Assembly (NCBI GenBank): GCA_903885795.1
Contig: CAISJV010000055.1
Coordinates: 1 to 54,215 of the forward strand
From: an uncultured delta proteobacterium
GTDB taxonomy: Bacteria; Desulfobacterota; Syntrophia; Syntrophales; UBA8958
Direction: 5' to 3'
Length of the DNA: 54,215 nucleotides
In this document: piece by piece, positions 7,232 to 34,733 of the stretch
Position numbering within the stretch: the first letter of the stretch is position 1
Layout of the letters: the number at the start of each line of letters is the position of its first letter
Program-made: the position numbers and the translations under genes
Notes under the pieces: model-generated
Databases searched by the model: none
The model's input: only the letters and a program-made list of their open reading frames with translations
Told to the model about the DNA's origin: nothing

Positions 7232-7284
7232 CCCTTATATTGTATTAGAACTCTTGTCAATCATTTTTTTGAAAGGAGAAAAAC

Positions 7285-12984: not shown

Positions 12985-13019
12985 TAAAAAAAAAGGAAGC
13001 ATAAAAGCTTCCCTTTTTT
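12985..13019 (-). terminator. terminator or attenuator between the small gene and the metallopeptidase
   Basis: On the minus strand, GGAAGC-TTTTAT-GCTTCC is followed by a run of nine T, a canonical intrinsic terminator. It lies only 18 bp downstream of the 48-residue gene stop and 18 bp upstream of the metallopeptidase start. Any transcript from the upstream promoter must pass it. Confidence 0.85.
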
Positions 13020-13035
13020 ACCATAAGAGCAATTG

Positions 13036-13182: not shown

Positions 13183-13239
13183 ATTATAACCGCCCTTTAA
13201 AACCCTCGATTTCGCATTCTTCCTATTAACTATTTCCAT

Positions 13240-13634
13240 CGAATTACCCTCCCAGCCATATAATCCTAACCCCCTGATTGCACCCCGCCAGTTCCCCGGT
13301 TATATTTCGCTGCAATTTCAATAGGTTAATCTTGTACCACGCTGTAACGGTAACACTTACATTAATAAAAACAAGAAAGTCAAGCAAAAAGGTAATTACT
13401 GTTAAAGAGAATTTAGATCTCGCCCCCTCCTTATTTTGTACATACATGACTACATCTTGTATGTCAACAGAATAATGGACACAAAATATTGAATTAGATT
13501 CCAGCAAATGTGCTATGTATATTTATGAATAACGAATACAACATCAGTCTATTTTATGATATACACAGATCAAATTTTAGCATGTTCATATTCTTTCAAA
13601 GTGTAATGGATAAGAATCGACATCATTCCCTTGA
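13240..13634. other. 395-bp intergenic region without a supported gene
   Basis: An 87-codon frame on the minus strand (13244-13507) has no ribosome-binding site and no family. On the minus strand near 13380 a TTGACT with AT-rich sequence downstream could be the promoter for the 48-residue gene and the metallopeptidase cassette. Nothing else is seen. Confidence 0.4.
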
Positions 13635-19317: not shown

Positions 19318-20514
19318 CTATTGTTCATCTTTTAATGCGCTCATGTTCTTACGTTCTTGCTGTGTTCTTAGAGCTATCACTTTTCCTTGAATTCTCCGCT
19401 TTGCTTCCAATTTCACATCAGCATATTTTAATACACTATCACGGCGGGAATGATCGGTAAGCATTTGCAGCTCATCAACTGATCCACCCTGCTCATTGAT
19501 GAACGCCGTACAGGATGAATGTTTCAACCCTGCATACATTCTTATGGTCTCACCACACGAATGAGCGGCTTTATTCCAAAGATCTACAAGAAAGTCATGC
19601 TGATATCGTTTACCTTCCATGCGGCTTGACGAATGTGTGAAATAATAGGGGCTTACGCATAAATGCAGCCTGCCAGCCCATTGTTTGAAGTCGGGATGAC
19701 AAGGGATCTCATGTATTTTATGCGTCTTGGTATGCTGGACGAGTTCCTTATTGCTGAATGACCGCCGAATGATGAAACAGTCACGCCGTTTATCATAGTC
19801 GTCCTTATGCAAAGCCATGGCCTCAGACGGACGTCTATAATGATATTTCAGCCACCAAAAAATTGGCTGGTGTTCAACAGGTATGGTCTGAATGATTTTG
19901 ATTTGCGTTTCTTCTGAAACCACATCTATTTTTGTTGGCTCTATCCCATAACGTCGTCGCTCCGGGAATTGAGGCATTGATAAAATTTTCCCTGATTTAT
20001 GAGCATAAACAAGGGCCTCATGAAGACAGTACATGACGTTAAGTTTACCCTTACCCTCTCTCTGAATGGCCCCCAAGAGACGACAAAGAACATTGTATTG
20101 TACTTCATGGAGCATGACCGGATTGACTCTAAACCATGGCTCCAAGTGATTCTTGATGCTGTTATGGTAATCTTTCTTTGTGGCCGGGGACAAATATGGT
20201 TGCGCTTCAAGCCATTCCCACAGAAAGGGAATAACATCGGTTGACTGGTTTGTGAATTTCTCTATCCGAAATATGCCGTTTTCCTCATCTGATCGCATAA
20301 CGGACAAAAGTCGATTTGCCATATCGGGAGTTGGGCAGAGAAAGCCCTTATACCTGCTTATTTTGTATTGCTTCTTGCCAATATACCACGAAACGAAATA
20401 ATAACCCCCATTGCCGACCTTGCGGAACCCGACAGACCCTTTCATGCTCACACCCCCACCATGAATTAAATGTGGGCTATCATGTCTAACGGATAAATTC
20501 AATTTATTCCCCAA
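19318..20514 (-). CDS. tyrosine recombinase (integrase) of element 2
   Basis: At 398 residues, catalytic positions are readable as Arg227/228 (YHYRRPSEAM), Lys263 or Lys266 (HTKTHK), His332 (GLKHSS), His355 (LTDHSRRD) and Tyr364 (VLKYAD). The second catalytic Arg, normally in a RH[ST] box, is Lys331 here. The protein is otherwise complete, with SAM-like domain at about 95-180, so it may be active or impaired. A start at the inner ATG (residue 24, MKGSVGFRKVGNGGYYF) is equally plausible because GGTGGGGGTGTGAGC precedes it. It lies 26 bp from attachment copy 2 and 20 bp after the Rep gene. Confidence 0.85.
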   Translation of the reverse strand: MGNKLNLSVRHDSPHLIHGGGVSMKGSVGFRKVGNGGYYFVSWYIGKKQYKISRYKGFLCPTPDMANRLLSVMRSDEENGIFRIEKFTNQSTDVIPFLWEWLEAQPYLSPATKKDYHNSIKNHLEPWFRVNPVMLHEVQYNVLCRLLGAIQREGKGKLNVMYCLHEALVYAHKSGKILSMPQFPERRRYGIEPTKIDVVSEETQIKIIQTIPVEHQPIFWWLKYHYRRPSEAMALHKDDYDKRRDCFIIRRSFSNKELVQHTKTHKIHEIPCHPDFKQWAGRLHLCVSPYYFTHSSSRMEGKRYQHDFLVDLWNKAAHSCGETIRMYAGLKHSSCTAFINEQGGSVDELQMLTDHSRRDSVLKYADVKLEAKRRIQGKVIALRTQQERKNMSALKDEQ

Positions 20515-20534
20515 ATTTAGATGTTGCCTTATCG

Positions 20535-21584
20535 TTAAAACGGCACACCCGCAACCATTGCCGACGCTTCAAAATCCTTAATCCACGTCAAAATCCGCAA
20601 TACCGTTGATCTTGACATATAAATAAAAAATTTCCTGTACTGTGCCCTTAAAGTTGCTTTGAAATATTTTCGTGCTCTTTTTGCGTATTTTCTCAATAAT
20701 CGCTTAAATAGGACCATTTCATATTGTGTGAGTTCGATAATATTACCGTCACCTGTTGATGGACTACCGAGTAACCCCCAATTTCTGCCTATACTCTCCG
20801 TCGATTCAAATCCCTCATGTTTAGAGATATATTTGCTCATGTATTTGGCAGCTTTTTTCAATGAACCTACAAAACGATAACTTTTATGATGGAGAGCCAC
20901 AGACAACGCATGACCGGAATTCTTTGTTTTTGTAAATTCTACCCATTTCACAGCAATCTTTAGACAAAGATCCAGATAGCCCTTTTGATCCATTCCATTG
21001 ACGTAATAAACCATGTGATAATGAGGGACGAATTGCCCCTCAAGCTTTCCAGTTTTTCTCCTTTTCCATTCCTTTTTCCAGACACCGTGAAAATCTATAC
21101 CTTCACGTTTCAAGTACTGTTTAAATTCACGTAAGCATCCAGCAGCCACTTTTGCTCTTTCCTTAATACTTAATCCCTCCATCACATCATCTGCGAACGT
21201 AAAATCCTGCCAAAACCTCAATGGCTCTTCAATCATGGCAATTCTCAGCTGCATATTCCGGCGAGATTTACTTGAAAAGCTGGTAACCGGCCCCCTTTTT
21301 CCAATCCCACCCCTGAAATTCGGCTCTCCAAAAAACTGTTTTGCTCTGTTACGAATAAAAGTAACTCCACTATGCACTTTCAAATGTTCATCTAACTCAT
21401 TGCATTCATTAACTTGATTAAATATGTCACTTAATACAAGCGTCTCCGATAAAGAGCCCACTGAAACATTATCATTGAATTGATCACTTTCCGGCTTGAG
21501 AGCCAGCGAGCCCGGGTCGTAGCGCTCTACGGGCGCCCGCTCGGACCTGATGAATGTTAAACTTTGATTTTGATCGACAGACAT
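20535..21584 (-). CDS. rep: HUH-type rolling-circle replication initiator (Rep)
   Basis: The 349-residue protein carries the HUH metal motif His188-x-His190 (FVPHYHMVYYV) and a two-tyrosine nicking motif Tyr248/Tyr252 (KYMSKYISK) as in phage and plasmid rolling-circle initiators. It would nick the element's double-strand origin and bind the 5' phosphate. The leader contains a 12-bp inverted repeat (21586-21620) whose distal arm includes the ribosome-binding site, suggesting translational control. It is located between the RHH regulator and the integrase. Confidence 0.85.
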   Translation of the reverse strand: MSVDQNQSLTFIRSERAPVERYDPGSLALKPESDQFNDNVSVGSLSETLVLSDIFNQVNECNELDEHLKVHSGVTFIRNRAKQFFGEPNFRGGIGKRGPVTSFSSKSRRNMQLRIAMIEEPLRFWQDFTFADDVMEGLSIKERAKVAAGCLREFKQYLKREGIDFHGVWKKEWKRRKTGKLEGQFVPHYHMVYYVNGMDQKGYLDLCLKIAVKWVEFTKTKNSGHALSVALHHKSYRFVGSLKKAAKYMSKYISKHEGFESTESIGRNWGLLGSPSTGDGNIIELTQYEMVLFKRLLRKYAKRARKYFKATLRAQYRKFFIYMSRSTVLRILTWIKDFEASAMVAGVPF

Positions 21585-22290: not shown

Positions 22291-22707
22291 TTACTGGGTG
22301 ATGAAGGATAAAAAATGCTGTTCTAAGGTTAACTCGTCTTTTGTCTGACATTCCCAAATGATTAACACGCGCCAGCCTTTTACCTTTAAATCCTCTTCAT
22401 TTTTTACATCACGGGCTTGATTGCGTGCAAGTTTTGGGTGCCAATAATCGGTATTTGACTTTGGCATCTGGGCGTCTTTGCAATTGGGATCGGGGTATTG
22501 GTGCCAGAAACAACCATGAACGAATATAACTGCGTGACGACTTGGAAAAACAATATCTGGTTTGCCTGGGAGATCTTTTCGGTGGAGGCGGAAGCGATAA
22601 CCCAAACGATGAGCCATTTTTCGGACGGCTATTTCGGGTGTCATATCTTTGCTGCGAATGGCGCGCATGTTTGCACTGCGCTGCTCAGACGTTAGTTTAT
22701 CGGTCAA
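22291..22707 (-). CDS. vsr: very short patch repair endonuclease
   Basis: At 138 residues it has the usual length of Vsr. Asp51 (GKPDIVF), His64 and His69 (VHGCFWHQ) are at the same positions as in the E. coli enzyme, as is the zinc-binding Cys/His set. Vsr nicks next to T:G mismatches produced by deamination of 5-methylcytosine, so it protects the host from the mutagenic partner methylase. It overlaps the HNH gene by 4 bp and is the last gene of the operon. Confidence 0.95.
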   Translation of the reverse strand: MTDKLTSEQRSANMRAIRSKDMTPEIAVRKMAHRLGYRFRLHRKDLPGKPDIVFPSRHAVIFVHGCFWHQYPDPNCKDAQMPKSNTDYWHPKLARNQARDVKNEEDLKVKGWRVLIIWECQTKDELTLEQHFLSFITQ

Positions 22708-23276
22708 CTCTTATCGCCGAATTTCTTGAATAGCCAATCATAAACTGATCTCTGCTCATCAATTCCTGCACGTCTGATTTGTGTTAGCAGCCATATTGTA
22801 CTTGGCTTTTCCGTCGTAATATTTTTTGCACCTTGATTACAGGTTGAACATAGAGCACGAAGATTTGATAATTCATCTTTACCGCCGTGACTACGATCAA
22901 CAATATGCCCTACATGAAGGCGCACTTTGCGGCTGGTAGAAGGATCAATGTCTCCGGGCGTTAACCCACACATCTGGCAGGTAAATCCGTTTCGGTCAAG
23001 AACGGCGGCCCTTAGGCGGGCAGAGATTAAAGGCGAAAATGAAACGCCATAATTTTCAGGTGGCTCTTCTCGTATTAGATATTGACCTGGCTTTAAATCG
23101 GTGCTGTCAAGATGCGAAAGTATAGGCCAGCCTTCTTGTTCGCGCAGTTCTCTTAACCGGCGGCTATATTGAACCGCGCCTTCTGCCGCTTCTTGTAATT
23201 CGTGGGATTCAATAACGCGGCCAATGTTTGCAATAAGGAACTGACGTATTTTTTCCTTTGAACCTTTTCTCACCAT
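22704..23276 (-). CDS. HNH restriction endonuclease
   Basis: The 190-residue protein has the HNH fold in its C-terminal half: Cys100/Cys103 (CQMCG), His121-x-x-His124 (HVGHIVDRSHGG), Asn138 and Cys143/Cys146 (CSTCN). The N-terminal ~80 residues look like a winged-helix DNA-recognition domain (residues 5-50). Sited between the cytosine methylase (10 bp upstream) and vsr (overlapping), it is the likely restriction enzyme of this Type II system. Confidence 0.85.
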   Translation of the reverse strand: MVRKGSKEKIRQFLIANIGRVIESHELQEAAEGAVQYSRRLRELREQEGWPILSHLDSTDLKPGQYLIREEPPENYGVSFSPLISARLRAAVLDRNGFTCQMCGLTPGDIDPSTSRKVRLHVGHIVDRSHGGKDELSNLRALCSTCNQGAKNITTEKPSTIWLLTQIRRAGIDEQRSVYDWLFKKFGDKS

Positions 23277-23286
23277 CAGACCCCCC

Positions 23287-24252
23287 TTAAGCTGTTGCTC
23301 TTAGTAATTGACGGCTAGTTAGTGCCGCAGCGACACATTCAGCAACTGCACAGGCTACCGGAGGTGGAAAAGCATTGCCTACTTGCCTGTATGCTGGTGT
23401 TTTCTTACCCGTAAAAATCCAATCATCAGGGAAACCTTGAATGCGTGCAACCATTGGAACAGTTAGACGCGGCATACCTATAAAGTCGCGATCTGGCGGA
23501 TTGTTTGCTACTACAAGTCCGTCAACACTCAAAGCCGCCCATGCCTTCCGTGCGCGGGTCGGGCCAAGGTCCGGGCCTCCGTGTTTCTTTGAACCTCCCA
23601 CTATTGTCGGTGCAATATCATTAGCCCTTGCACGCCACGCTGAAGCACCATGCCAGCCATGAGATGCCATAAGATCAAAAAGTGTTTCACCAACGGTCAG
23701 AGGCTTATGCTTATTTGGGGTAGGCCATTCAAAATACGGTGCAAACTGCTTACGTATAGCCACAAAGACAACACGAGGGCGTAGTTGGGGAACGCCATAA
23801 TCAGATGCATTCAGCAGCTGCCAATCTGTTATATAGCCGAGTTTTGCAATCTGACCAGACACATATTTCCGGTAGTCATCAAATATTGCATCGAGGATAC
23901 CACGGACATTCTCAATCATAACGGCACGGGGACGGATCTGATCAATGAGTTTGATGGCTGCCGGAAATAGATTGCGTTCATCGGCCTTACCAAGCTGCTT
24001 ACCGGCTTTGGAGAAAGGTGGGCAGGGCAAACCGCCTGCTATAAGATCAATCCCTTTGAATGGTGCTCCGTCAAACGTTTCAAGGTCTTGTTCAAAAACT
24101 TTCCAGTTAGGGCGGTTGAAGCGTAGCGTCTCGCAACAATGACGATCAATCTCTACAAGACCCTGATGAGTGAAGCCAGCCTGTTCCAACCCAAGCGCTT
24201 GTCCACCACCACCAGCACAAAGTTCTAAAGAGGCAAGTCCTTTTGTTCTCAT
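23287..24252 (-). CDS. DNA (cytosine-5-)-methyltransferase
   Basis: At 321 residues the motifs run in order: ELCAGGGGQALG (motif I), GGLPCPPFS with catalytic Cys77 (motif IV), IENVRG at 114-118 (motif VI), QLRPRVVFVA (motif VIII), then the target-recognition region (about 185-250) and RQVGNAFPPPVA (motif X). It modifies cytosines to protect DNA from the HNH enzyme. It is the first gene of the methylase-HNH-vsr operon; its promoter should lie in the 24253-24419 gap. Confidence 0.95.
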   Translation of the reverse strand: MRTKGLASLELCAGGGGQALGLEQAGFTHQGLVEIDRHCCETLRFNRPNWKVFEQDLETFDGAPFKGIDLIAGGLPCPPFSKAGKQLGKADERNLFPAAIKLIDQIRPRAVMIENVRGILDAIFDDYRKYVSGQIAKLGYITDWQLLNASDYGVPQLRPRVVFVAIRKQFAPYFEWPTPNKHKPLTVGETLFDLMASHGWHGASAWRARANDIAPTIVGGSKKHGGPDLGPTRARKAWAALSVDGLVVANNPPDRDFIGMPRLTVPMVARIQGFPDDWIFTGKKTPAYRQVGNAFPPPVACAVAECVAAALTSRQLLRATA

Positions 24253-24419
24253 GCTTCGTAATCTACACTTCCCTGTGGGTTATGTCAAATGTGGAGTTCA
24301 GAAAGAAGTTGATTAATTTACCGTTCAACATAAGAATTATCGAAGCAACCTGATAAAGAACATGTTCTTACCATGTGATTGCCTTCCTTAAAGAAATATA
24401 CCTGATATTATTAAAAAAA

Positions 24420-24490
24420 TGGCGGAAGTGCATGGGAATCGAACCCACCTGGGACGGTTTTAGCGCCCCACACCAGATTTGAAGTCTGGT
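24420..24490 (-). pseudogene. 3' half of tRNA-Sec (selC), attachment-site copy 3
   Basis: The minus strand reads the anticodon stem-loop CCAGA-CTTCAAA-TCTGG (anticodon TCA), the long variable arm, T-arm, acceptor strand and encoded CCA of a selenocysteine tRNA. The 5' half (GGAAG, D-arm) is absent: the integrase gene begins instead. This is the duplicated 3' portion carried by an integrated element. The intact selC should lie farther along or outside the window, because no 5' half is found. Confidence 0.85.
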
Positions 24491-24514
24491 TAGTTTTAGT
24501 ATTTTGTCACGTCT

Positions 24515-25555
24515 TTACTGGGCCTCAGAGGTTTTCTCTACTACGCACACCACACACGGAGCATCTAATATTTTTACCGCCTGCTTCTTGTGTTCCCCTG
24601 AGAGATGAGCATATCTCAAGGTCATTGCAATACTCTTGTGACCCAGAAGTTCTTTCAGAGTGGTCAAGTCGCATCCCCCCATTGCCAGCCATGAGGCAAA
24701 GGTATGCCTGAGATCGTGGAATTTGAAATTTCTTATCCCGGCCCTTCTGAGTGCGGTATGGAATGAATCACCAGCCAGTTGAGTATCAAATACCCTTCCT
24801 CCGTCAATCTTTACAGGAATCGGCTTGAACGCGGCCCGGAGAGTATCATTAATAGGGATTGATCTTCTTTCGCCGTTCTTTGTGTCAACGACGTGGATGT
24901 ACCCGGCCTTCATGTCAACATTGTCCCACCGGAGAGAGAGGATTTCTCCCTGGCGCATACCAGTGTTCAAAGCAAGCTGGACTATGGGATAGAGGTAGGC
25001 GGCCGCCTGACTCTCCCGGCAGCACTTCAACAGGGCTTCGGCTTCCTCTTTTGAAAGGTATCGTAACCGGCGGTTATTCTCTTTTAGGCACTTGATCTTT
25101 CTGACATCTCTCAGGACGCTTTCATCGGCCATGCGCCAGTCAACGGCCTTGCTGATCATATGCTTCAAGCAGGCAAAATAGCGATTGACCGTAGCAACTT
25201 TGTATTTTGCCAATAGCTCTGTTTGATACTGCTCCATTGCCATGATATTGAGCGATGCTGGAGGTATATCACCAAATTTATCAAGGATTGCTTTTGATAG
25301 AAGTTTCTTGTCATAATGACTTTTTTGGTGTTCACAGTATTTCAGGTAGGAATCTCGGAGCTTTGAAAGAGTTTCGGGGTTGTAGGCGATCTTCCCCATA
25401 CTTGCCAATTTCTGGTTCTTTATGACAACGACTTCCTCATAGCTTTTGTTAACTGTCAGCCAATGTTCCTGTGACCCCCTGCCGCCTTCTCTCCACCTGA
25501 GCACATGCTTTGTCGGGGAGAGTGACTTAATCGTTATTCCGTCCCCTCTTGGCAT
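24515..25555 (-). CDS. tyrosine recombinase (integrase) of element 3
   Basis: This canonical 346-residue phage-type integrase has Arg201 (NTGMRQGEI), Lys226 (DTKNGERRS), His280-x-x-Arg283 (KFHDLRHTFA), His306 (LLGHKS) and Tyr315 (LRYAHLS). The N-terminal ~60 residues resemble the AP2-like arm-binding fold and residues 60-160 the core-binding domain. The ribosome-binding site GGAAGGGGGAAG precedes the ATG. It ends 24 bp from the tRNA-Sec half, which is its likely target. It overlaps a 59-residue upstream gene by 22 bp. Confidence 0.92.
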   Translation of the reverse strand: MPRGDGITIKSLSPTKHVLRWREGGRGSQEHWLTVNKSYEEVVVIKNQKLASMGKIAYNPETLSKLRDSYLKYCEHQKSHYDKKLLSKAILDKFGDIPPASLNIMAMEQYQTELLAKYKVATVNRYFACLKHMISKAVDWRMADESVLRDVRKIKCLKENNRRLRYLSKEEAEALLKCCRESQAAAYLYPIVQLALNTGMRQGEILSLRWDNVDMKAGYIHVVDTKNGERRSIPINDTLRAAFKPIPVKIDGGRVFDTQLAGDSFHTALRRAGIRNFKFHDLRHTFASWLAMGGCDLTTLKELLGHKSIAMTLRYAHLSGEHKKQAVKILDAPCVVCVVEKTSEAQ

Positions 25556-25713
25556 ATTTCTTCCCCCTTCCTGATTTTTTTTCGCAGACGCGACCTCCGT
25601 TCTGCCTCAACAAAGATATCAGGTTCGTTTAACGGTGGCAATAAAACCCTCAATAAGGCAATGATTTCCCTATTTTGGGCCTCTATGAGCGTTAACCTTT
25701 GTTCAATAGTCAT
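25534..25713 (-). CDS. 59-residue protein overlapping the integrase start
   Basis: The frame begins MTIEQRLTLIEAQNREIIAL and ends RKGEEICQEGTE; it is helical and strongly charged. It overlaps the integrase start by 22 bp in another frame, so the two are translationally coupled. Small coupled genes in this position often encode excisionase or integrase-control proteins; no family is recognised here. Confidence 0.45.
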   Translation of the reverse strand: MTIEQRLTLIEAQNREIIALLRVLLPPLNEPDIFVEAERRSRLRKKIRKGEEICQEGTE

Positions 25714-26269
25714 CGTAGAACCTTTGAATCATGACCCTTAAGGATTCTTAGTCGAGGCTGTGCTCTGATGATGATCAATGATTTACTCTTATACTACTTC
25801 CTGACCTGGACATTCTGGCGGTATTTTTTGGGTAAGGCCACTTTTCTTTATCGTCTAACCTGCTTATCGCGCATCATGAAGGGGGGAAATCCCAATCTAA
25901 AACTCGTTGGATCCGAGAGATCGTTAAGAAGTGCGCCGATAGTAACGGCATATCACGATGATCCACCCACACCTTTTCCGTTACCAAATTCTGACCTACT
26001 TGACGAGTAAAGGCATCATGGATGTGAAAATCTAACTTATCAGTGGGCATAAGAATCGAGAAAGTTTAAGCATCTATAAAGACTTGGTTCTTGCTGATAA
26101 ATAGAAGGAATACTGGGATGCAGTGAAGAATTTTCCCGATTCAATGGATTGCGAATATAGTTCCAGTTCGGAAAAGGGAATTAATATTGACTGAAAACGC
26201 AGCTCTGTTTCATTACCGAAACAGCAATATAGCCTTGCAAAACGAAACCGTATGTATTAATATGCAATC
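25714..26269. other. 556-bp region without a supported gene
   Basis: An 80-codon plus frame at 25768 has no ribosome-binding site and low-complexity content. The stretch 25880-25970 and 26030-26130 has coding-like pieces interrupted by stops, so it may be a decayed gene. Near 26206 GCTCTGTTTC and GAAACAGC form a small inverted repeat. Nothing further is seen. Confidence 0.4.
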
Positions 26270-27421
26270 ATGATCAAGAGAAAACTGCAAGATTCAATCA
26301 TTTCTTCCTTAAGCCAATATCCCGTTGTCGGAATACTCGGGTCGCGACAGGTCGGCAAGACCACCCTGGCAAAAGCCATCAGGGCGATTGTGAGAGCGGA
26401 TGCGATATATCTCGATCTGGAGTTACCTTCCGACTGGAACAAGCTTCAAGATCCGGAACTGTATCTGCGACAGTATGAGAATACGCTGGTAATCATCGAC
26501 GAAATCCAACGCATGCCGTTGCTGTTTCCACTCATCCGGGCACTGATTGATAGGAACAGGATCGGTGGCCGTTTTCTGATCCTCGGTTCCGCCTCTCCGG
26601 AACTGATTCGCCAAGCCTCGGAGAGCCTCGCCGGTCGCATCATTTATCACGAGCTAATGCCTTTCAGTCTGTTTGAGACAAGTTCCGACCAGTTTCAGAA
26701 ATTGCTCCTTCGTGGCGGTTATCCAGGGAGTTACCTTGCGGATACCGATGAAAACAGTTTTGTCTGGCGAGAATCGTACATCAAGACATATCTGGAGACT
26801 GACATACCGCAACTGGGCATCCGCATTCCATCTGTTCAACTGAGAAGATTCTGGACGATGCTCGCCCATTCCCACGGACAACTCTGGAACGGAACCAAAA
26901 TCGCTTCTAGCCTTGGAGTTTCAGCCCCGACGATTCGGCACTATCTGGACATTCTCGAATCAACCTTTGTTGTTCGCCAGATTCAGCCATACTACGCCAA
27001 TGTCAAGAAGCGTTTGATCAAATCACCCAAGGTAAACATCCGAGATTCCGGACTCCTTCACGCTTTGTTGAGTATCCGGACTCTTGACAATCTACAGAGC
27101 CATCCTTCTCTCGGTAGCTCCTGGGAAGGATTCGTCATTGAGCAGATCATTGCCCTCTTGCCGGAAAACAGCAACATATTCTTTTATCGGTCCAATGCCG
27201 GCGCCGAGATCGACCTCCTGTTTTTTGACAAACAGAATCTCCCCGTTGCCATAGAGATCAAATACTCGATGAGCCCCACTGTTTCCAGGGGATTTTGGAA
27301 CGCTTACGAAGATTTATCGTGTAAGCGAGGATATGTTGTATATCCGGGCAGCGAGATCTATCCTATAGGGAAAAACGTTTTTACGTTGCCAATAAGTGAA
27401 TTGCAAACAATTCTCGATTAG
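26270..27421 (+). CDS. AAA-type ATPase with DUF4143 (stand-alone)
   Basis: The 383-residue protein has an N-terminal ATPase domain with Walker A GSRQVGKTT (24-32) and Walker B LVIIDE (73-78), and a sensor segment LILGSASPEL. A C-terminal DUF4143 domain contains the PD-(D/E)XK-like core AGAEIDLLFF...VAIEIKY. A winged-helix segment (GTKIASSLGVSAPTIRHYLDIL) lies between them. Such proteins are common single genes in bacteria and archaea with no settled function; roles in mobile-element or toxin-antitoxin-like behaviour have been suggested. It stands alone, with a hairpin directly after the stop. Confidence 0.85.
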   Translation: MIKRKLQDSIISSLSQYPVVGILGSRQVGKTTLAKAIRAIVRADAIYLDLELPSDWNKLQDPELYLRQYENTLVIIDEIQRMPLLFPLIRALIDRNRIGGRFLILGSASPELIRQASESLAGRIIYHELMPFSLFETSSDQFQKLLLRGGYPGSYLADTDENSFVWRESYIKTYLETDIPQLGIRIPSVQLRRFWTMLAHSHGQLWNGTKIASSLGVSAPTIRHYLDILESTFVVRQIQPYYANVKKRLIKSPKVNIRDSGLLHALLSIRTLDNLQSHPSLGSSWEGFVIEQIIALLPENSNIFFYRSNAGAEIDLLFFDKQNLPVAIEIKYSMSPTVSRGFWNAYEDLSCKRGYVVYPGSEIYPIGKNVFTLPISELQTILD

Positions 27422-27427
27422 CGAAGA

Positions 27428-27463
27428 CCTTGAACAAATGCAGCGGCGTGTATTTGTTCAAGG
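27428..27463 (+). terminator. hairpin after the ATPase gene
   Basis: Perfect 12-bp arms CCTTGAACAAAT (27428-27439) and ATTTGTTCAAGG (27452-27463) begin 7 bp after the stop. No T-run follows, so it is a weak terminator or an mRNA-stabilising end. Confidence 0.5.
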
Positions 27464-27922
27464 CCGTGGATAGGTGCCGGTAAAAACGAAAAAGGCAACA
27501 GGAGATAAAATGTAAAAAGAAATGAAGCTCTCCGTCGCATGTAGGGGGGTAACCGTGGTCTGTGTTCTTGTATATCCGATTATCCCGGCATTTTAGTTCG
27601 TGGAAGCCAGCTGTTTTGCAGACATCGGGCTTACTTTTTTCTTTCCGCTAACTCGCCGTCGCGTGATTTATTGAGAAGCTCATGTCTCCCGCGGTCATGT
27701 GTGCGGGTATTCCTCTGCGGTTGAAATCTTCAAGTTTTGTGTAAAGTTTCTCTGCATCATCAGCTACTCGTTTGGCCACGAGATCCGTGTACTACGTCCA
27801 AACAATCCCGCCCGAACAAAAAAGCGGATGATTTCTCGCCCGCCCCTAAAAAAGAATATTGATAATCGTGTCGCCCGGAAGTAGTATATAGACAGTTAGT
27901 ATTTTCAGTAGGTCACGAACAT

Positions 27923-27973
27923 AGCCGCTTGGCTGCCCCATTGCTAGACAACGGGACAGAAGCGGCTTTTTTT
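27923..27973 (+). terminator. rho-independent terminator with no gene assigned upstream
   Basis: AGCCGCTT (27923-27930) pairs with AAGCGGCT (27960-27967), with further inner pairing, and TTTTTT follows. No plus-strand gene ends nearby, so it may terminate a small RNA transcribed from the preceding 100-200 bp. Confidence 0.65.
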
Positions 27974-28033
27974 CGTCTATCGCAGGACTGGATAATTACC
28001 TTAGAAAATCAAGGAGAAAACATCCTTCGCAAC

Positions 28034-28243
28034 CAGGTCGAATTTAGGCCGCTAAATCGCTTCAAGGGATCACGTCCCTGATACATATATTTTGGACTGC
28101 TCTCTTAGTTCATTATGCTCAGAGAGCTCCTTCTGACCCAGGCCGAATTTAGGCTGTCAGCCAGCAATGGCGCTTAATCGATTCAAGGGATCCACGTCCC
28201 AGGCACATATATTGAATCTCTCAGTTCATTATTCTCAGGGAAG
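28034..28243. repeat. two tandem imperfect repeats of about 100 bp
   Basis: Copy 1 (28034-28130) and copy 2 (28139-28243) share CAGG-CGAATTTAGGC, TTCAAGGGATC-ACGTCCC, ACATATATT and the TCAGTTCATTAT-CTCAG end. Copy 2 has an extra ~20 bp. Each copy contains a small hairpin (GGGATC-ACGTCCC). Confidence 0.6.
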
Positions 28244-28420
28244 CTTGCCCGATGGATATATCACCACGTGCAGCATGTACTCGGTGGGGCAACCCCGATC
28301 AAAGAGGCGATCATGCTCGCCAAGACAGGAACCCATCAGCGGGAAAATGGCGATTTCGAGATTTCGTGTGTTTCCGAAATCAGCAGCACGTAACTAACTG
28401 AAATGCAGGAGCAAAGCTCT

Positions 28421-28470
28421 AATCAGTAACTCTGATAAGAGCCGAAGGCTCGTAAGCAGAGTTACTGATT
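28421..28470. repeat. nested palindrome upstream of the recombinase gene
   Basis: Outer arms AATCAGTAACTCTG (28421-28434) and CAGAGTTACTGATT (28457-28470) are perfect complements. The centre holds a second hairpin GAGCC-GAA-GGCTC (28439-28451). The position, 206 bp before the recombinase start, fits a recombination or regulatory site. Confidence 0.65.
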
Positions 28471-28675
28471 AATTTTAAGAACCGCACAAACAGGCTCAAC
28501 GCGTACAACGACGCCCCTCTTGAGGTCGAAAACAACCCCCCCCCCGGCAAAAACGAACACGCGGCAATCCCACGTTAGGACTACCTAATGGAGTAGGGCA
28601 TTCAAACAAGAACATTGAGCACCGGCACAGCCGGAGTCCTGCTGCCGAGCAGGTAAAAATACGGAAACACAATGT

Positions 28676-29785
28676 ATGGGGGACGAAACAATGGGAAGAG
28701 ATCATCGTAATTTTGGCTGCGGTCGCACGCTATCAGAGCAGACGCTTAATCGACTGGCAATTGCAAGCGCTAAAGCGAGAGGCAATGGATCCGAAAGCAT
28801 CGATAAGGCGAATACCTGCTTGCGGGATTTCGTAAAGTTCCTGGATGATCAGTATCCAGGAATCAAATGTCTCGAAGCGGTTACGCAGGACGTTCTGAAC
28901 CAATACGCAGCAAATTTGGCTGAGCAAGTGTGGGGCGGCGATATAGGAACCGGGACGAGCGCGAACAGGATCTCAGTTTTGAATCAAATTTTTCAACTGG
29001 ATCCAACGCACAGAGGCCTGAAACTGTCCGCCCGTGAACATGGGATTTCCAACGAAAATCGAACATCATGGAAAAATAAAGCAATAGAAAAACCTATGCA
29101 AAACAAAATCATGGCGCACATCGTGGGAGAGTACAGAAAAACCGGGGACATCAGATACCTGGCGCTAGGGCATATGATCGATATGGAGCGCGCAGGAGGT
29201 TCAAGGTTTAAAGAAAGTGCTCTCATGGATCTTCGGAGCGCGAACTTCGAGACGGGGCGGGTGACATTGCGTGGTGAGGACGGAACGAAAAACGACAGGC
29301 CGCGGACTTTTGAGCCCGCGAATGGCGGGCTGGATGCATTCAAGGCCGCTCAAATTTTCGTGCTAAATAACCCCGGCATGTTCACCAGGGGAACTCTGGT
29401 TCCGATGACGGAAAACTATAAAACCTGGACTAACTGGACAGACAAACGAATGCGTGAAATAAACCACGCCGTCGGTAATGACAAGAAATATCATGGTTTT
29501 AGGCATCATTACGCCCACGAAAGCTATGCTGAAAAATGGCAAATCCGGACAGGTATTCGCGTTGAGTGTACCGTTGCTGCTGGCTGCACAGCAAAAGGCC
29601 AGTGGAAACAATACGCCTCAAAATTGACCGGGTTATCGCCAGCGGAATGCCGGCGCATCGACAAAGAAATCCGAGCTGGCATGAAGGGAACTGACGGAAA
29701 GACCATATTGAAGAACGGCGTCACGCAAGAACTCGGACATTCTAGGCTGGATGTCACGAACAGTTACTGCGGGCCGTCTGTATAA
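28676..29785 (+). CDS. tyrosine recombinase, Integrase_1 / Phage_int_SAM_2 type
   Basis: The 369-residue protein has an N-terminal SAM-like domain (about 20-125) and a catalytic part with Arg in AGGSRFKESAL, His-x-x-Arg-His in YHGFRHHYAHESY, and Gly-His...Tyr in ELGHSRLDVTNSY. This is the layout of integrase-domain proteins found in plasmids and integrative elements of proteobacteria. The start at 28691 (MGRDHRN) is an alternative. It is convergent with the ParB-like gene, sharing a strong terminator, and has a nested palindrome upstream. It is unlikely to use the tRNA-Sec site, since three other recombinases already flank those repeats. Confidence 0.8.
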   Translation: MGDETMGRDHRNFGCGRTLSEQTLNRLAIASAKARGNGSESIDKANTCLRDFVKFLDDQYPGIKCLEAVTQDVLNQYAANLAEQVWGGDIGTGTSANRISVLNQIFQLDPTHRGLKLSAREHGISNENRTSWKNKAIEKPMQNKIMAHIVGEYRKTGDIRYLALGHMIDMERAGGSRFKESALMDLRSANFETGRVTLRGEDGTKNDRPRTFEPANGGLDAFKAAQIFVLNNPGMFTRGTLVPMTENYKTWTNWTDKRMREINHAVGNDKKYHGFRHHYAHESYAEKWQIRTGIRVECTVAAGCTAKGQWKQYASKLTGLSPAECRRIDKEIRAGMKGTDGKTILKNGVTQELGHSRLDVTNSYCGPSV

Positions 29786-29806
29786 AAATAAATTAGGACA
29801 ATGTGA

Positions 29807-29841
29807 AGAGGGCGGATCAGATGATCCGCCCTCTTTTTTTT
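29807..29841 (+). terminator. rho-independent terminator of the recombinase gene
   Basis: Perfect 13-bp stem AGAGGGCGGATCA / TGATCCGCCCTCT with a 2-base centre, followed by TTTTTTT. It ends the recombinase transcript and lies 13 bp from the stop of the convergent ParB-like gene. Confidence 0.95.
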
Positions 29842-29853
29842 GCCCGAAAATCG

Positions 29854-31341
29854 TCAAACCTTTTTGTTGTCACTCCGAAACTTCGTTCTATAATCCAGCA
29901 ATGCCGCTTTTTCCTCGCGTTCTTGCTCCTTTTCCCTGTTTAAAGCATCAATATCCACGACATGAGTGATGGCGTCTCTCAGCATCTGTTGCAGCTTCTT
30001 GGGCGGTACGGCTTCCAGCTCGTACACGTCGTCACCGTATAGCTTTGCGTATTTATCGTAATTACTTGATCCTTTTTTAGCCTTTCCGCCAGCGGGCAAC
30101 TGCAACTCGATCACCTGGTCACGTGTCAACGCGACTCGAACCGGGTAAATATTCTTAATCCCGAAATCATCTCGCATTGACCTGGAGAAGGACTGTGCGA
30201 TTTCTTCCCCATCCGGGTCATGATCGGTTAAAAACAAGAGCACCAGGTTTTCCTTAGTGCTCTTCTCATACCGGAGAAACAGATCGTGGCGCGGCTGGAT
30301 TGATGCATAGCCCCTCCCGATCGTGTACGGAATCCGAAAATCGGACGCAACAGGTCTGATGATGCTCTCGATTGTGTTTTTTTCCCCGATTATCTCAATA
30401 TGGTGTGGCTGCGATTGCATGTAATTTCGTGCATATCCCACCATAAACCGTTCCATTTGACGTTCTATAAAAGGCGCTACGGAAGTGTAGACAGCCCAGT
30501 TTACCATGGGTCTGGTCGGATCAGCGATGACATGCCACTGTATTATTTGAGTCAGACGCGCACGAGTCAGCAAATCAGTGAGCCGCTGATATGACGCATG
30601 GTCGTTTTTGTATGTTGAGCCTGCCTTAAACGCATGACGCAAAGGGGGTGCGTTCAGCAGCAAATAATGGACCTGCCTGTCCGATAATGGCCAAAACTCC
30701 TTTGTCTCGCTGATGACTTTTTTAATCGCGTCGATGAATGGTTGCATGGCATCTGAGATTTCGGACCTTTTTTTTGTTCCAAAGATCTCCATCTTCGATA
30801 CTCGAATATCAGCCCTGGTTATCTTGTCAATTTGCAGCTGCGCCCTGGCGTTATTTGTAGATATAGACGCGTCCACATGTTGTTCCCGAACGCTTTCTTC
30901 TACTCCTTTCACGCGCTGTCTATTGAATTCCCTGAGATAGATGAGAAAATCGGGATCGTTATGGAACAGTCCCTTGGCTATCGAACACTGAACATTTCCG
31001 TTTCTAAAACGAGTCATGGAGAGGGCTACAAAACGCCGATGGCCCGAGATAATGTATAAATCATCGCTGAGCACCAAAGGGTCAAGCAGTCCGCGCGCGC
31101 GAATAGATTCAGCCAGTGCTTGGATCGCTGGATCGTCACAAGAAATTTTCCTGTAGATTTCTTCATTGAATCCCGACACGCGAATTTCGGAAAACGAGAC
31201 ATGTCTCGTTTCTATCAAAAAGGTACTGGTTCCGAGAGTTTGCAGGTTGCGGCTGCGGGCAGGGATCGGCTCCGATTGCAACGATAATGATGCTCCGAAC
31301 GGATCCGATTTCAATAATTCAAAAAGACTCTTTTCCATCAT
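29854..31341 (-). CDS. ParB-like domain fused to a Spo11/topoisomerase VI-A-like (5Y-CAP + TOPRIM) domain
   Basis: Residues about 45-140 of this 495-residue protein are a ParB/Srx-type domain with GHRR (100-103). Residues 200-290 resemble the winged-helix 5Y-CAP domain of Spo11/TopoVI-A: PLSDRQVHYLLLN places Tyr226 where the DNA-cleaving tyrosine of R-x-x-x-Y lies, followed by LTRARL and DPTRP. Residues 313-400 are a TOPRIM fold: Glu320 in IEIIGEKNT and DHDPDG (Asp373, Asp375, Asp377). All catalytic positions appear intact. It could therefore bind specific DNA and cleave or relax it. It overlaps the 83-residue upstream gene by 4 bp. Confidence 0.75.
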   Translation of the reverse strand: MMEKSLFELLKSDPFGASLSLQSEPIPARSRNLQTLGTSTFLIETRHVSFSEIRVSGFNEEIYRKISCDDPAIQALAESIRARGLLDPLVLSDDLYIISGHRRFVALSMTRFRNGNVQCSIAKGLFHNDPDFLIYLREFNRQRVKGVEESVREQHVDASISTNNARAQLQIDKITRADIRVSKMEIFGTKKRSEISDAMQPFIDAIKKVISETKEFWPLSDRQVHYLLLNAPPLRHAFKAGSTYKNDHASYQRLTDLLTRARLTQIIQWHVIADPTRPMVNWAVYTSVAPFIERQMERFMVGYARNYMQSQPHHIEIIGEKNTIESIIRPVASDFRIPYTIGRGYASIQPRHDLFLRYEKSTKENLVLLFLTDHDPDGEEIAQSFSRSMRDDFGIKNIYPVRVALTRDQVIELQLPAGGKAKKGSSNYDKYAKLYGDDVYELEAVPPKKLQQMLRDAITHVVDIDALNREKEQEREEKAALLDYRTKFRSDNKKV

Positions 31342-31589
31342 GAATCTTCCCCCTTTTCTGCTTGAGCCACAACATCTTCGAAATATTGACGTTTGTTGAA
31401 TTGCACGAAGGCGGGGCCGCTGGGACCGTATGGCTGTTTTGCAATATCTATCCCCGTTGGATGCCCGTCGTAACTGTTATCCAGCAATTCCTTAATTATG
31501 GCCTTCTGCCATCGGTCAGCAGGCAGACCCATCAAAGCATAAAGATTGTTGAAATATTCGCCGCCACGTGATTCTCTTAAGATGTTCAT
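31338..31589 (-). CDS. 83-residue protein coupled to the ParB-Spo11-like gene
   Basis: This 83-residue product starts MNILRESRGGEYFNNLYALM and contains KAIIKELLDNSYDGHPTG, which superficially resembles the N-box of GHKL ATPases (as in TopoVI-B). The other ATPase motifs are missing, so this may be chance. The ribosome-binding site AAGGAGAAATTAC precedes the ATG. It overlaps the next gene by 4 bp, indicating a shared function. No family is recognised. Confidence 0.6.
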   Translation of the reverse strand: MNILRESRGGEYFNNLYALMGLPADRWQKAIIKELLDNSYDGHPTGIDIAKQPYGPSGPAFVQFNKRQYFEDVVAQAEKGEDS

Positions 31590-31837
31590 TTGTAATTTCT
31601 CCTTTTTTACTCAAGGTGCCATACCCCTGTATGGTGAGGTATCGCGAATTTTTAGGATTTACAGATTTAGCCATTATTGTCTTCCTCCAATCTGTTAATA
31701 TACTCGTTGTCGTGCTTTTGCCGATGACGCACGAACGCCGACGTGCCAGCCAATGTATTCATAAACCGTTGTTCGGACGAGAGCCTCATCATGGTGACAA
31801 GCTCAGATGTATGTCATGCTCCCCATCGCGGGTTATG

Positions 31838-32042
31838 TTGATGGATTCTTGGCTCCGCGGTTGCGGTAATGTTTTTGGATCCTTGACTCCGCAGTTGCGG
31901 TAATGTTGTTGGACCCTTGGCTCCCCAGTTGCGGGTAATGTTGATGGATTCTTGGCTCCGCGGTTGCGGTAATGTTTTTGGATCCTTGACTCCGCAGTTG
32001 CGGTAATGTTGTTGGACCCTTGGCTCCCCAGTTGCGGTAATG
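31838..32042. repeat. six tandem 34-bp repeats (2 x 3 higher-order)
   Basis: Units at 31838, 31872, 31906 (35 bp), 31941, 31975 and 32009 end in GTTGCGGTAATG. Units 1/4, 2/5 and 3/6 are pairwise identical except for one extra G in unit 3, so a three-unit block duplicated recently. It lies about 250 bp upstream of the ParB-Spo11-like operon. Confidence 0.9.
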
Positions 32043-32307
32043 GACGGTCGGCAGCAATCTTTTGTTGCCGAACTAGCTAAGTATACTAACGAGCTTCACT
32101 TTACACTATTTTTCGGAATGTACAATATTTTTTGAGGTTAATCCCATATTTAACATTTAATTTACCAAGCATTCGTAATCTTTAACAATTTAAAAATTTC
32201 GTAGACGTGATTATGCGTTTAGCGCTGTTCTTGCTTTATGAAGCACCTCGTTGTTGCGGGTCATGGGGTACGACAACGATTCATTCGTTTTGGGGCCATA
32301 AGGCAGC

Positions 32308-32484
32308 GGCCAATGGAGCGAGCAAACCGACCTGCATGACTATCCCTTAGCCAGCATCGCAAATTACCTTTATCATATGGGCTGGAAAATAGACAAAGAT
32401 AGGAAAATGCATCGAGCAGTCTAAAGATACAACCATGAAAAAACCTACGTTAACGCTGTCTTTGCCTATGCAGAGAGGATATGA
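32308..32484 (+). pseudogene. remnant of lytic murein transglycosylase (MltB-like)
   Basis: The frame reads GQWSEQTDLHDYPLASIANYL then HMGWK..., an in-frame TAA, and RYNHEKTYVNAVFAYAERI before a stop. These match the C-terminal part of MltB-family transglycosylases (ASIANYL..HGW and YNHS..YV..V..LA). Only the C-terminal end is left, with one internal stop, so it is a decayed gene. Confidence 0.65.
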
Positions 32485-33098
32485 AAATCCTGCCGATCGT
32501 TATTTGATGATATAGCGCCGTGGGGCGACTCTGGAGATATATGTTTAGACGGCAATACTATGGACTTTTATTCCTAAAATAAGTAGTTAACAGTTTTAAT
32601 CCAATGGAATTATTGCAAGGGTTTGCGTTTCCGGGGATATGGTGAGAGCTGCGGGGTGATACCATCTCGAAAAGCTTTTCTTTGACATTTTCATGATATT
32701 GCTTTACGCATATTTTCCAGAAGCGGCAATATAGATGATGATCATTGATGGAAGGAAGACCCCTGAGCCACTAAAAAGTATCATGGTTCGGGGTGCGTTG
32801 ATTTTACAAGACAACTTCCTGTAACACGCAAAGCGTCAGCCTCGGTGAAAATGCAGGACTTCAAACGGTTATCAATGATGTTATATTCCGGATAATTATG
32901 ATATTTGTGACAAGTCATGTGAAGGTTTTGGGCCAACAGACACATGATTGAATTATTATGGTATCGCTTAGATACTATGTGGTCAAGCAGATAAAACAAA
33001 CCTCAACATAGCATCGGGATGAGACCAGTCTACTTGACTCAATAGAATGCTTATAACCTTATTAAAAGACCCAAGATGCCTTTAAGATAAATATTCTT
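32485..33098. other. 614-bp intergenic region upstream of the sensor kinase
   Basis: AT-rich with no supported gene. A 72-codon minus frame at 32781 has no family or start signal. The promoter for the kinase gene should lie in the last 100 bp. Otherwise nothing is seen. Confidence 0.4.
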
Positions 33099-34733
33099 AT
33101 GAATTATGTAATAACCGATCATATTCTCTCCCATGTCCATAAAATAAGTACTCTTTTGACCGAACCGTCTTCAGTCGACAGGGTCCTAAAGGTCATCATG
33201 GAAACAGTAAAGAAGGACCTTCATTTCAACAGATGTTCTGTCTATCTTGTAAACAAGAATAACAAAAAACTTGAATGTAAATACATTACAGGCTTTTCTC
33301 CTCAAAAAGAGAAATTCGTAATGCAAAGACCGTTTGATATAACTAAGCACGACTGTATCGAAACTAAGGTAATCCTTTCTGGTAAACCTATTCTTGTAAA
33401 GGAATTTTGCTCCGATCCGGTTGTGACGGAACTGGACAGGAGGGTTACAAATAGAATGGGGCGTGGCTGTACGCTGTATGTGCCATTGAAAATTAAGGGT
33501 GATATTATAGGTATTTTGGGTGTGGACAAAAAACATAATGAACCTGAAATTAACGAGAATGAGGTTGAATCAATTTCAATATTTGCCAATTACGCGAGTA
33601 TCATTATTGAAAAATCGAGACTTGTTGAAGACTTGTTGAATGAGAAAAAATTTTCCGAAAATGTTTTAAAGAGTTCTAACGATGGAATCCTGACAGTGGA
33701 TGTTATCGGCCGGATAACCTCATTAAATCCAGCGGCAGAAGGAATGTTCGACATAAGAAGGCTTGATGCAATTAATAAATTTATGGGGGATATTTTTGAA
33801 TCTTCTGAATGGAAGAAAAGAATAAGTAAAACCCTTCAACAGCATATAAATATTAAAGGGTGGGAGTATACCCTTACGAAGAAAAATAATCAGGACATCA
33901 TGCTTGATATAAGCATCTCCCAAATCATGAATGAAGAAGGTGATCTTATCGGTTTCATGTTTCTCATTCGGGACATAACGAATGAGCGCAGAAGGGATGA
34001 GTATTTGCAGAGAATGACTCGGTTGATCTCATTGGGAGAACTTGCGGCCGGTGTGGCACATGAAATCAGGAATCCTCTCACAGGGATCGGGGTGGTACTG
34101 GACATGCTCCGAGGCAAAAAGCGGCTATCCAAAGTTGACTGCGACTTAATAAATCAGGCCAACGGCGAAATTGAAAGGCTGGAAAACCTAATCGCTGATC
34201 TTCTCGTCTTTGCAAATCCCAGGCAACTTAATTATGAACTCGTTGAGATTAATGATATTTTAAAAAGCATTTCTTCGCTGATCAGCGAACAGTGCAATAA
34301 ACAGAAAGTTGAACTGACCGGCAAATATTGTAATAAACTGCCACTCGTTTATGTGGATCGGGAAAGGATAAGACAAGGATTTTTAAATGTCGTTATAAAT
34401 GCAATTCAGGCAATGCCGGAAGGCGGGCGTCTTACTGTTGAAACGAACGTTTATCGCCCGGATAGTACGCCCGTCAAGGGTCAATGCATTATGATTACCA
34501 TCAGCGATACCGGGATTGGTATATCCAATGCACACAAAGACAGGATTTTCGACCCATTCTTCACCACTCACAGTGACGGAACCGGCCTGGGACTCTCCAT
34601 TACTCACAGTATCATAAAGGAACATAATGGATCGATATGGGTTGATTCTGATCAAGGAAAGGGTACAAAATTTACCATCTTGCTGCCACAGGATTGCCGG
34701 AAGACCTCCTGTGATGATTTATATATTTTGTGA
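33099..34733 (+). CDS. sensor histidine kinase (GAF-PAS-HisKA-HATPase)
   Basis: The 544-residue soluble sensor has a GAF domain (about 15-175, with RCSVYLVNKNNKKLECKYI and GIIGILGVDKK), a PAS domain (about 186-300), a HisKA dimerization domain with phospho-accepting His321 (GVAHEIRNPLTG), and a HATPase domain (about 420-540; NVVINAIQAMPEGG, DTGIGI, GTGLGLSI). No membrane segments are seen, so it senses a cytosolic signal. The response-regulator gene follows 15 bp later; together they probably control the adjacent mutase operon. Confidence 0.93.
   Translation: MNYVITDHILSHVHKISTLLTEPSSVDRVLKVIMETVKKDLHFNRCSVYLVNKNNKKLECKYITGFSPQKEKFVMQRPFDITKHDCIETKVILSGKPILVKEFCSDPVVTELDRRVTNRMGRGCTLYVPLKIKGDIIGILGVDKKHNEPEINENEVESISIFANYASIIIEKSRLVEDLLNEKKFSENVLKSSNDGILTVDVIGRITSLNPAAEGMFDIRRLDAINKFMGDIFESSEWKKRISKTLQQHINIKGWEYTLTKKNNQDIMLDISISQIMNEEGDLIGFMFLIRDITNERRRDEYLQRMTRLISLGELAAGVAHEIRNPLTGIGVVLDMLRGKKRLSKVDCDLINQANGEIERLENLIADLLVFANPRQLNYELVEINDILKSISSLISEQCNKQKVELTGKYCNKLPLVYVDRERIRQGFLNVVINAIQAMPEGGRLTVETNVYRPDSTPVKGQCIMITISDTGIGISNAHKDRIFDPFFTTHSDGTGLGLSITHSIIKEHNGSIWVDSDQGKGTKFTILLPQDCRKTSCDDLYIL

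Follow-up and report, generated by a model that had tools for sequence, protein, structure and literature searches.

A family of ParB domains fused to Topo mini-A, present in an uncultured delta proteobacterium and carried in part by small integrative elements

The contig CAISJV010000055.1 of an uncultured delta proteobacterium (assembly GCA_903885795.1, order Syntrophales), analysed here over 54,215 nucleotides and called the window below, holds an intact gene whose product joins an N-terminal ParB domain to a Topo VI-A/Spo11-like unit of the phage "Topo mini-A" kind. This ParB-mini-A fusion is a conserved family, and it is carried in part by small integrative elements with an integrase, an AlpA-like protein, a primase and attachment-like (att-like) repeats at tRNA genes. 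The fusion has apparently not been described in print, since our literature searches, whose scope did not take in the founding mini-A paper and the supplements of PMC12704722, returned no protein in which ParB is joined to mini-A, Topo VI-A or Spo11. We propose with moderate confidence that, within the replication/excision module of integrative elements, it acts as a DNA breaker of the phosphotyrosine type that is switched by a nucleoside triphosphate (NTP) and needs no B subunit.

Domain composition and predicted fold

An earlier sequence-only reading of this DNA proposed that a ParB domain and a Spo11/TopoVI-A protein share one chain, and profiles, alignment and fold confirm it. The reading took 29854-31589 as a single fusion; the gene itself is shorter (Table 1), and the rest of that span belongs to a separate 83-aa open reading frame (ORF) that has no family match in Pfam, PHROG or NCBIfam and no tblastn match from the ORFs neighbouring other fusions. 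The N-terminal part of the fusion matches ParB families in PHROG (best E-value 1.9e-7), residues 238-492 match phrog_6247 "DNA topoisomerase" (8.1e-40), and a profile of 49 aligned fusions matched ParBs among solved structures at 8.8e-9. In Pfam, ParB_N scored 19.3 bits, under its cut-off of 26.3, and the mini-A half matched nothing at E up to 1, so that a Pfam-based annotation or survey could miss the protein. No Topo VI-A/Spo11 family matched in Pfam (E up to 1) or NCBIfam (E up to 0.1), no helix-turn-helix (HTH) family matched in Pfam at E up to 1, and the sequence searches of solved structures gave no Topo VI-A, even with the profile, which had 15 matches when E values up to 10 were allowed.

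An AlphaFold2 model was built with the 49 aligned fusions (mean predicted local distance difference test, pLDDT, 86; predicted template modelling score 0.66; residues 1-38 mostly at pLDDT below 50). Plain Foldseek gave seven matches at E up to 0.001, all of the ParB type, and Topo VI-A was absent among its best 50 matches; in the viral structure library the named matches were mainly ParB-like, with no mini-A named among the best 50. In VIA-align, which re-examined chains that Foldseek had already picked out, residues 44-143 superposed on ParB with CTPgammaS (7bnr; Z 13.4, 91 residues, 1.9 A), and residues 196-461, which form a complete Topo VI-A/Spo11-like unit, superposed on Topo VI-A (1d3y; Z 11.5, 13% identity and 4.6 A over 214 residues). 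The Spo11 core complex (8uru) scored lower, with Z 8.8, and the Toprim part alone resembled MksG (8b7f, Z 11.0) and JetD (7til, Z 10.4). Thus the winged-helix and Toprim folds, on which the sequence-only reading had made its proposal depend, are both present in the model, the 1d3y match running over CAP and Toprim.

Active-site residues

In all 49 aligned fusions, R222, Y226, E320, K321, D373, D375 and G378 of the mini-A module are invariant, and so are G84, P88, S99, G100, R103, N140, R143 and K145 of the ParB domain. R222, Y226, E320, D373 and D375 are also invariant in an alignment of the window protein, one other fusion and five lone phage or plasmid mini-As. Tyr226 in a 5Y-CAP domain and Glu320 in a TOPRIM domain had been correctly numbered by the sequence-only reading, which also named the GHRR motif. 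Its "DxDxD" set stands for D373 and D375 and fails for the third acid: at position 377, 40 of the 49 fusions have D and the other 9 have E, and the five aligned lone mini-As have S.

The likeness of the Toprim part to MksG and JetD, with scores near that of Topo VI-A, raises the alternative of a defence or superinfection-exclusion nuclease, whose ParB domain would sense or clamp foreign DNA for the Toprim to cut in the JetD/MksG manner. JetD and MksG, of Wadjet and MksBEFG, share with the fusion the Toprim fold match and the CAP-plus-Toprim build; as described in excerpts of PMC10586767 and PMC10123090, however, they have no CAP tyrosine and are members of SMC complexes, whereas Y226 is kept in 49/49 fusions, and JetD was therefore rejected as the identity of the fusion. 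A gene for a TIR/pentapeptide protein in one element, and a methylase, HNH and Vsr gene in the window, would suit defence, which had also been raised by the sequence-only reading. The recurrent neighbours, on the other hand, are integrase, AlpA-like and primase genes and lend it no support, no search aimed at PADLOC systems or jetABC having been made; we consider a defence role unlikely.

The description of the ParB domain as "CTPase-like" is right as to the fold and the GxxR nucleotide motif of the ParB/sulfiredoxin (Srx) fold, which is kept, but both glutamates of CTP hydrolysis are replaced in the 49 fusions. At position 101, the counterpart of E78 in the GERR motif of B. subtilis ParB, 48 fusions have H and a single one, from Smithella, has L; position 139, whose pairing with E111 is read from the ENLQR motif, is Y in 20, H in 14, F in 9, C in 5 and A in 1. 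According to an excerpt of PMC8494293, the substitutions E78Q and E111Q in B. subtilis ParB abolish CTP hydrolysis and leave the other tested CTP functions, and PadC, whose ParB-like domain likewise lacks both glutamates, binds CTP and does not hydrolyse it. Because GxxR is kept, both glutamates are replaced and PadC offers a precedent, the ParB domain of the fusion is predicted to bind a nucleotide without canonical hydrolysis. PadC is not known to be fused to a DNA-cleaving module. For the ParB-CTPase fold, nucleotide specificity is described in part of PMC12704722 as not predictable from sequence or AlphaFold3.

Distribution and origin of the family

The survey suggested by the sequence-only reading covered 84,980 species genomes and returned 56 loci coding for a relative, 54 of them with a match that includes ParB residues and two (L178, L180) with a match in the mini-A part only; one phage contig (L010) brings the relatives to 57. 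By record title, the 56 genome loci belong to Planctomycetota (31), Betaproteobacteria (14), Deltaproteobacteria/Syntrophales (6, including two Smithella contigs) and five other hosts (Verrucomicrobia, Akkermansia, Victivallales, Spirochaetes and Sphingomonadaceae), and some of these names may be wrong, as 54 of the 56 loci are metagenome-assembled. Forty-eight of the 57 relatives were intact enough to be aligned with the window protein, which gave the 49-fusion alignment; nine frameshifted, interrupted or truncated loci were left out (L145, L160, L169, L172, L178, L180, L181, L182, L184).

The distribution is patchy. The fusion of the window is the only one among 41 genomes comprising its own and the closest relatives, and of 395 genomes taken from the phylum, nine have mini-A-type matches at E up to 1e-10, one of them being the window's own. 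Across the order, 115 of 155 genomes matched, most of the listed matches covering the ParB part only with weak E-values, like ordinary Spo0J/ParB, and full-length fusions were found at five places in four genomes, again with the window's included. A further copy, in genome G096, is cut off by a contig end after the ParB part. Genome G066 carries two copies (L119 and L120) whose DNA is identical after the stop codon up to both contig ends, one of them with GLRR instead of GHRR.

In a tree of the 49 fusions and 89 lone mini-As, which is of the "quick" kind and whose root was not tested, the fusions lie on one side of one branch (SH-aLRT 100, one label change). This fits a single origin, in which a mini-A probably acquired its N-terminal ParB/Srx nucleotide-binding domain once.

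Topo mini-As, reportedly described by Takahashi et al. in 2020, are Topo VI-A-like proteins that consist of a single chain and occur in phages, viruses and plasmids. The remark of the sequence-only reading that stand-alone A-like proteins occur in mobile elements was borne out by our searches of 50,697 phage and 72,556 plasmid records, which at E up to 1e-5 found lone mini-As in 72 and 9 of them, respectively. No place in these records covered 80% of the fusion, and among the matches listed (30 of the 72 phage and all 9 plasmid ones) none starts before query residue 138, i.e., in the ParB core. A protein of phage NP1, given as a Mini-A example in a figure legend of PMC7614492, matches the fusion at E 7e-13, and two plasmid genes annotated "Topo mini-A" match at E 9e-7 over 39% of the query. 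Viral contigs gave at least 555 stretches confirmed as relatives; the fusions among the best 80 loci, which were kept, are L002 and L003 from one phage (L003 being the same contig as L010), and further scans of viral contigs returned only this known phage. None of the 89 lone loci has a ParB match on its mini-A ORF. A Rosetta-stone test for a separate ParB gene beside a lone mini-A gave one weak case in 89 loci (L049, E 3.4e-4), a ParB-like ORF of a viral contig, at 3076-4056, that lies directly upstream of the mini-A. The function of mini-A is given as unknown, perhaps plasmid maintenance, in the relevant part of a review (PMC8084294).

Like Topo mini-A, the fusion holds a 5Y-CAP domain with the catalytic Tyr and a Toprim domain with E and DxD in one chain; its C-terminal ~290 residues align with mini-As and keep the same catalytic residues. 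It differs in the ParB domain, in a ~10-residue insertion after the catalytic Tyr, in forming a separate clade and in its integrase/AlpA/primase neighbours. Topo mini-A has ~300 aa and the A-module only; with its 495 aa and ParB domain, the fusion is thus best filed as a variant, the module being mini-A and the whole protein not. The fusion also resembles the ParB-CTPase-fold fusions of a 2025 survey (PMC12704722), which combine a ParB nucleotide-binding domain with an enzyme and are often on mobile elements. The partners named in the part of that survey considered here are HTH, HNH, UPF0020, methyltransferases, DUFs, CBS, ASCH and others, with no topoisomerase among them, and "topoisomerase", "toprim" and "Spo11" have no occurrence in its main text. 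The present family adds to these known fusions a case that may escape surveys relying on Pfam.

Carrier elements and gene neighbourhood

Direct repeats of at least 14 bp that overlap a tRNA gene and flank the fusion were taken as att-like, no chance level being computed, and were found at 6 of the 57 loci (Table 1). The smallest of the elements so delimited (L146) consists of genes for a 263-aa ORF, an AlpA-like protein, the fusion, a primase, an HTH protein and an integrase, all assigned by cluster except the 263-aa ORF, which has no PHROG or Pfam match. The family thus points to very small integrative elements built around an integrase, an AlpA-like protein, the fusion enzyme and a primase. 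In L150, a protein with pentapeptide repeats and a TIR domain is encoded at 13002-14183, between the possible element-bounding repeats.

Clustering of 953 ORFs from 58 loci (the 57 relatives and the window) put the fusion in a cluster of 53 loci, a tyrosine integrase in one of 34 and a second integrase in one of 6; AlpA-like HTH clusters cover 7 and 4 loci, and primase/helicase clusters 10 and 4. Hidden Markov models (HMMs) placed an integrase within 5 kb of the fusion at 37 of 57 loci, as against 12 of 84 for the lone mini-As, or at 16/24 and 9/59 when only loci with 4.5 kb on both sides are counted. This contrast is only indicative, because the HMMs derive from the fusion loci themselves and the lone mini-As were taken from different sources, namely collections of viruses and plasmids. 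Within the same distance of the fusion, AlpA-like models matched at 25 and primase/helicase models at 16 of the 57 loci.

Neighbour lists, from which L173, L180 and L184 had been left out, gave 50 genes directly downstream of fusions and 78 downstream of lone mini-As, loci without a same-strand downstream ORF being omitted. Among the best 25 of 72 families for the fusion set, the primase families phrog_1156 (7/50), phrog_19930 (5/50) and phrog_10514 (4/50) appear, with counts that overlap and cannot be summed, whereas no primase is among the best 25 of 104 families for the lone set, whose families are diverse. Downstream representatives match RepB_primase, Prim-Pol, DUF3987, D5_N with AEP-TOTE, and DnaB in Pfam; of the ten downstream proteins searched, those of L139 and L179 were unmatched and that of L166 matched only below the cut-off. 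Upstream, HTH_17 and DUF1580 were found, the HTH count being raised by the hand-picking of 7 of the 50 upstream genes from cluster labels (L147, L165, L166, L175, L178 and L010 replaced, L177 added).

The position of the fusion directly before primase/helicase genes, in the same direction, suggests a further alternative, a replication initiator or origin nuclease whose 5'-linked break would leave a 3'-OH to start replication or would open the origin for the adjacent primase. Primase and helicase neighbours, however, suggest primed replication, and no repeat common to the loci was found beside the fusion; we think this role very unlikely. Repeats of 9 bp stand in tandem in or near the downstream primase in L151 (11884-11942), L157 (6128-6164), L181 (11988-12040) and L134 (7835-7907). 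They look recurrent and were considered as origin iterons, but strict scanning for arrays of TCTGTCNNN picked out only 2 of the 57 fusion loci and none of the 84 lone ones, and we therefore make no claim of origin iterons.

On the phage contig L010, the fusion lies between the terminase-small (GP3_package) and terminase-large (GpA) genes, and in phage Phobos a lone mini-A directly precedes both terminase genes. This would be expected of a packaging or concatemer-processing factor that cuts or resolves element DNA for the terminase, and a prohead-protease/head gene with a tail gene in L153 agrees with it. Terminase large, though, is only one of the 50 downstream genes among the families listed, namely that of L010, and the 6.1-kb L146 element has no recognised packaging gene, which makes a packaging role for the family quite improbable. 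The L153 stretch (718-10980), with an integrase, the fusion and these head and tail genes, is possibly a capsid-carrying satellite or a prophage remnant.

A role in segregation, also suggested by the sequence-only reading, was not supported. A ParA-like gene was found by tblastn at 0 of 58 loci, which reach up to ~10 kb on each side and many of which end at contig ends, whereas the same procedure gave ParA-like ORFs, which served as the queries, at 18 of 21 ordinary ParB loci. Together with the missing HTH match, this leaves little but the ParB fold to recommend a canonical ParABS-like partition protein with a decatenase attached, which we regard as extremely unlikely.

Of 15 genomes or records searched for the B-subunit transducer domain of Topo VI (PF09239), 4 contain it and 11 do not, the latter including the window's genome, which is listed as 100% complete; among 14 control genomes, the same test was positive in 4 archaea.

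Proposed function

Integrase, AlpA-like and primase neighbours, together with the tRNA att-like repeats in relatives, make it likely that the fusion acts on the element's own DNA, as the sequence-only reading had supposed when it spoke of cleavage or decatenation of the element. We hypothesize that the fusion has spread within the replication/excision modules of small integrative elements and of one or more phages. Its ParB domain would bind an NTP and thereby switch dimerisation and/or clamp DNA, as ParB and PadC do, and this switch would control or position the mini-A dimer. The dimer would cut both strands by means of Tyr226 and keep the 5' ends covalently bound, while E320, D373 and D375 would bind the Toprim metal ions. 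The break could serve catenane or concatemer resolution, or DNA opening, during excision and replication of the element.

Several points weigh against this proposal. Lone mini-As do without a ParB domain, which means that the switch is not essential to the module, and with the hydrolysis glutamates replaced, a ParB-like cycle may not run. Att-like repeats were not found in 51 of the 57 loci, many of which end at contig ends, and models of neighbours derived from fusion loci favour those loci. Against independence from a B subunit stand the 4 of the 15 genomes in which a Topo VI-B-like domain does occur, and among the 11 negatives there is a virus record of only 8.6 kb. In the window itself, neither a primase nor an AlpA-like gene was detected within 5 kb of the fusion, and there is no tRNA; no direct repeat flanking the fusion was found in 24000-33100, and two relatives offer no clean empty site.

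The order of a nucleotide-binding part, CAP and Toprim recalls Topo VIII, a type IIB topoisomerase of plasmids and integrated elements that also combines a nucleotide-binding part with a Topo VI-A-like part on mobile DNA. Topo VIII uses a GHKL ATPase/transducer part, and its fused forms have the B-A order; in the fusion, the ParB fold occupies the N-terminal place of the GHKL part. The boldest reading is therefore a type IIB-like topoisomerase in which a ParB-type NTP gate replaces the GHKL ATP gate of Topo VI/VIII. Nucleotide-driven ParB-ParB engagement would trap DNA above the Spo11-like cleavage dimer, and the outcome, on the element, would be either strand passage gated by the NTP or double-strand breaks under strict control of the clamp. 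We judge such a gate improbable; if it existed, a lineage of minimal (~6-10 kb) integrating elements would be marked by a ParB-mini-A enzyme. For the favoured reading of an NTP-switched breaker, the implication is a practical one, because a switch by which an NTP controls a Spo11-like breaker would be directly assayable and would provide a handle on mini-A function.

The locus in the window

The copy in the window is an intact gene, and no element is recognisable around it. It lies to the left of an apparent histidine-kinase/response-regulator pair starting at 33099. This pair is conserved in two relatives and the gene order beyond it is not, so that the element ends could not be placed. On the other side, a 369-aa ORF convergent with the fusion had only a sub-threshold N-terminal SAM match in Pfam (E 0.15), and a more distant tyrosine integrase falls in the cluster of integrases found beside other fusions (Table 1). 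The copy may be the last gene of a decayed element. That it is a relic, or that the host has retained it for some other function, is compatible with the other readings; the missing primase, AlpA-like gene, tRNA and att-like repeat and the presence of other integrases nearby speak for it, while the intact frame and the full set of catalytic residues speak against it, and on balance we find it possible but somewhat doubtful.

Table 1. Features of the fusion gene and its surroundings in the window, and likely elements in relatives
Location	Position	Strand	Feature	Basis or remark
Window	29854..31341	-	ParB-mini-A fusion gene, intact, 495 aa, ATG start	ORF, profile matches, fold
Window	30913..31212	-	ParB/sulfiredoxin-fold domain, residues 44-143; GHRR 100-103, NRQR 140-143	Profiles, fold
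Window	30442..30756	-	5Y-CAP (winged-helix) part of mini-A module, residues ~196-300	Tyr226 codon 30664-30666; Toprim boundary approximate
Window	29959..30408	-	Toprim part, residues ~312-461, with E320, D373, D375	Alignment, fold
Window	31338..31589	-	Separate 83-aa ORF, 4-bp overlap with fusion start	ORF list
Window	31831..32042	.	Array of 34-bp units, 6.2 copies, upstream of 83-aa ORF	Once in genome
Window	28676..29785	+	Tyrosine-recombinase-like ORF, 369 aa, convergent with fusion	HGFRHH...LGHSRLDVTNSY C-terminal, read by eye
Window	24515..25555	-	Tyrosine integrase, cluster shared with integrases beside other fusions	4.3 kb from fusion; shared element unproven
L142			50-bp repeat, 9,387-bp element	tRNA-Asp
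L168			50-bp repeat, 7,849-bp element	tRNA-Cys
L175			49-bp repeat, 7,492-bp element	tRNA-Glu
L146			25-bp repeat, 6,070-bp element (smallest)	tRNA-Met
L150			17-bp repeat, 14,364 bp	tRNA-Met; weaker, may be chance
L153			16-bp repeat, 10,262 bp	tRNA-Ser; weaker, may be chance

The array of 34-bp repeats to which the sequence-only reading had drawn attention is present, but nothing ties it to the fusion family. As a parS-like site it was rejected, because the repeat has no second match in the window's genome and, to the extent that the contigs cover it, the DNA up to 2.5 kb from each of the other 57 fusion genes has no similar array listed. Short tandem repeats of other kinds are listed near fusions, and L182 has a 73/145-bp array ~2 kb upstream.

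Elsewhere in the window, further mobile DNA may be present. On the minus strand (3369-6095 and 1464-2726), a 908-aa protein combining a TOTE-type primase with DUF3987 and a nearby tyrosine integrase perhaps mark a further integrative element, and an integrase adjoining a Rep_ORF2-G2P-like protein (19318-21584, both sub-threshold) perhaps a filamentous-phage-like or rolling-circle one. A cytosine-5 methylase, an HNH endonuclease and a Vsr gene stand in a row at 22291-24252 on the same strand, as does, by eye, a type I restriction-modification-like set at 13635-18257, with its R part short or broken. Finally, a dispersed repeat of ~160 bp, noticed through the DNA of a relative (L197:6200-12200, at ~5766-5927), matches the window's genome at about 40 places, spread over many contigs, with 40 out of 80 candidates having been scored.

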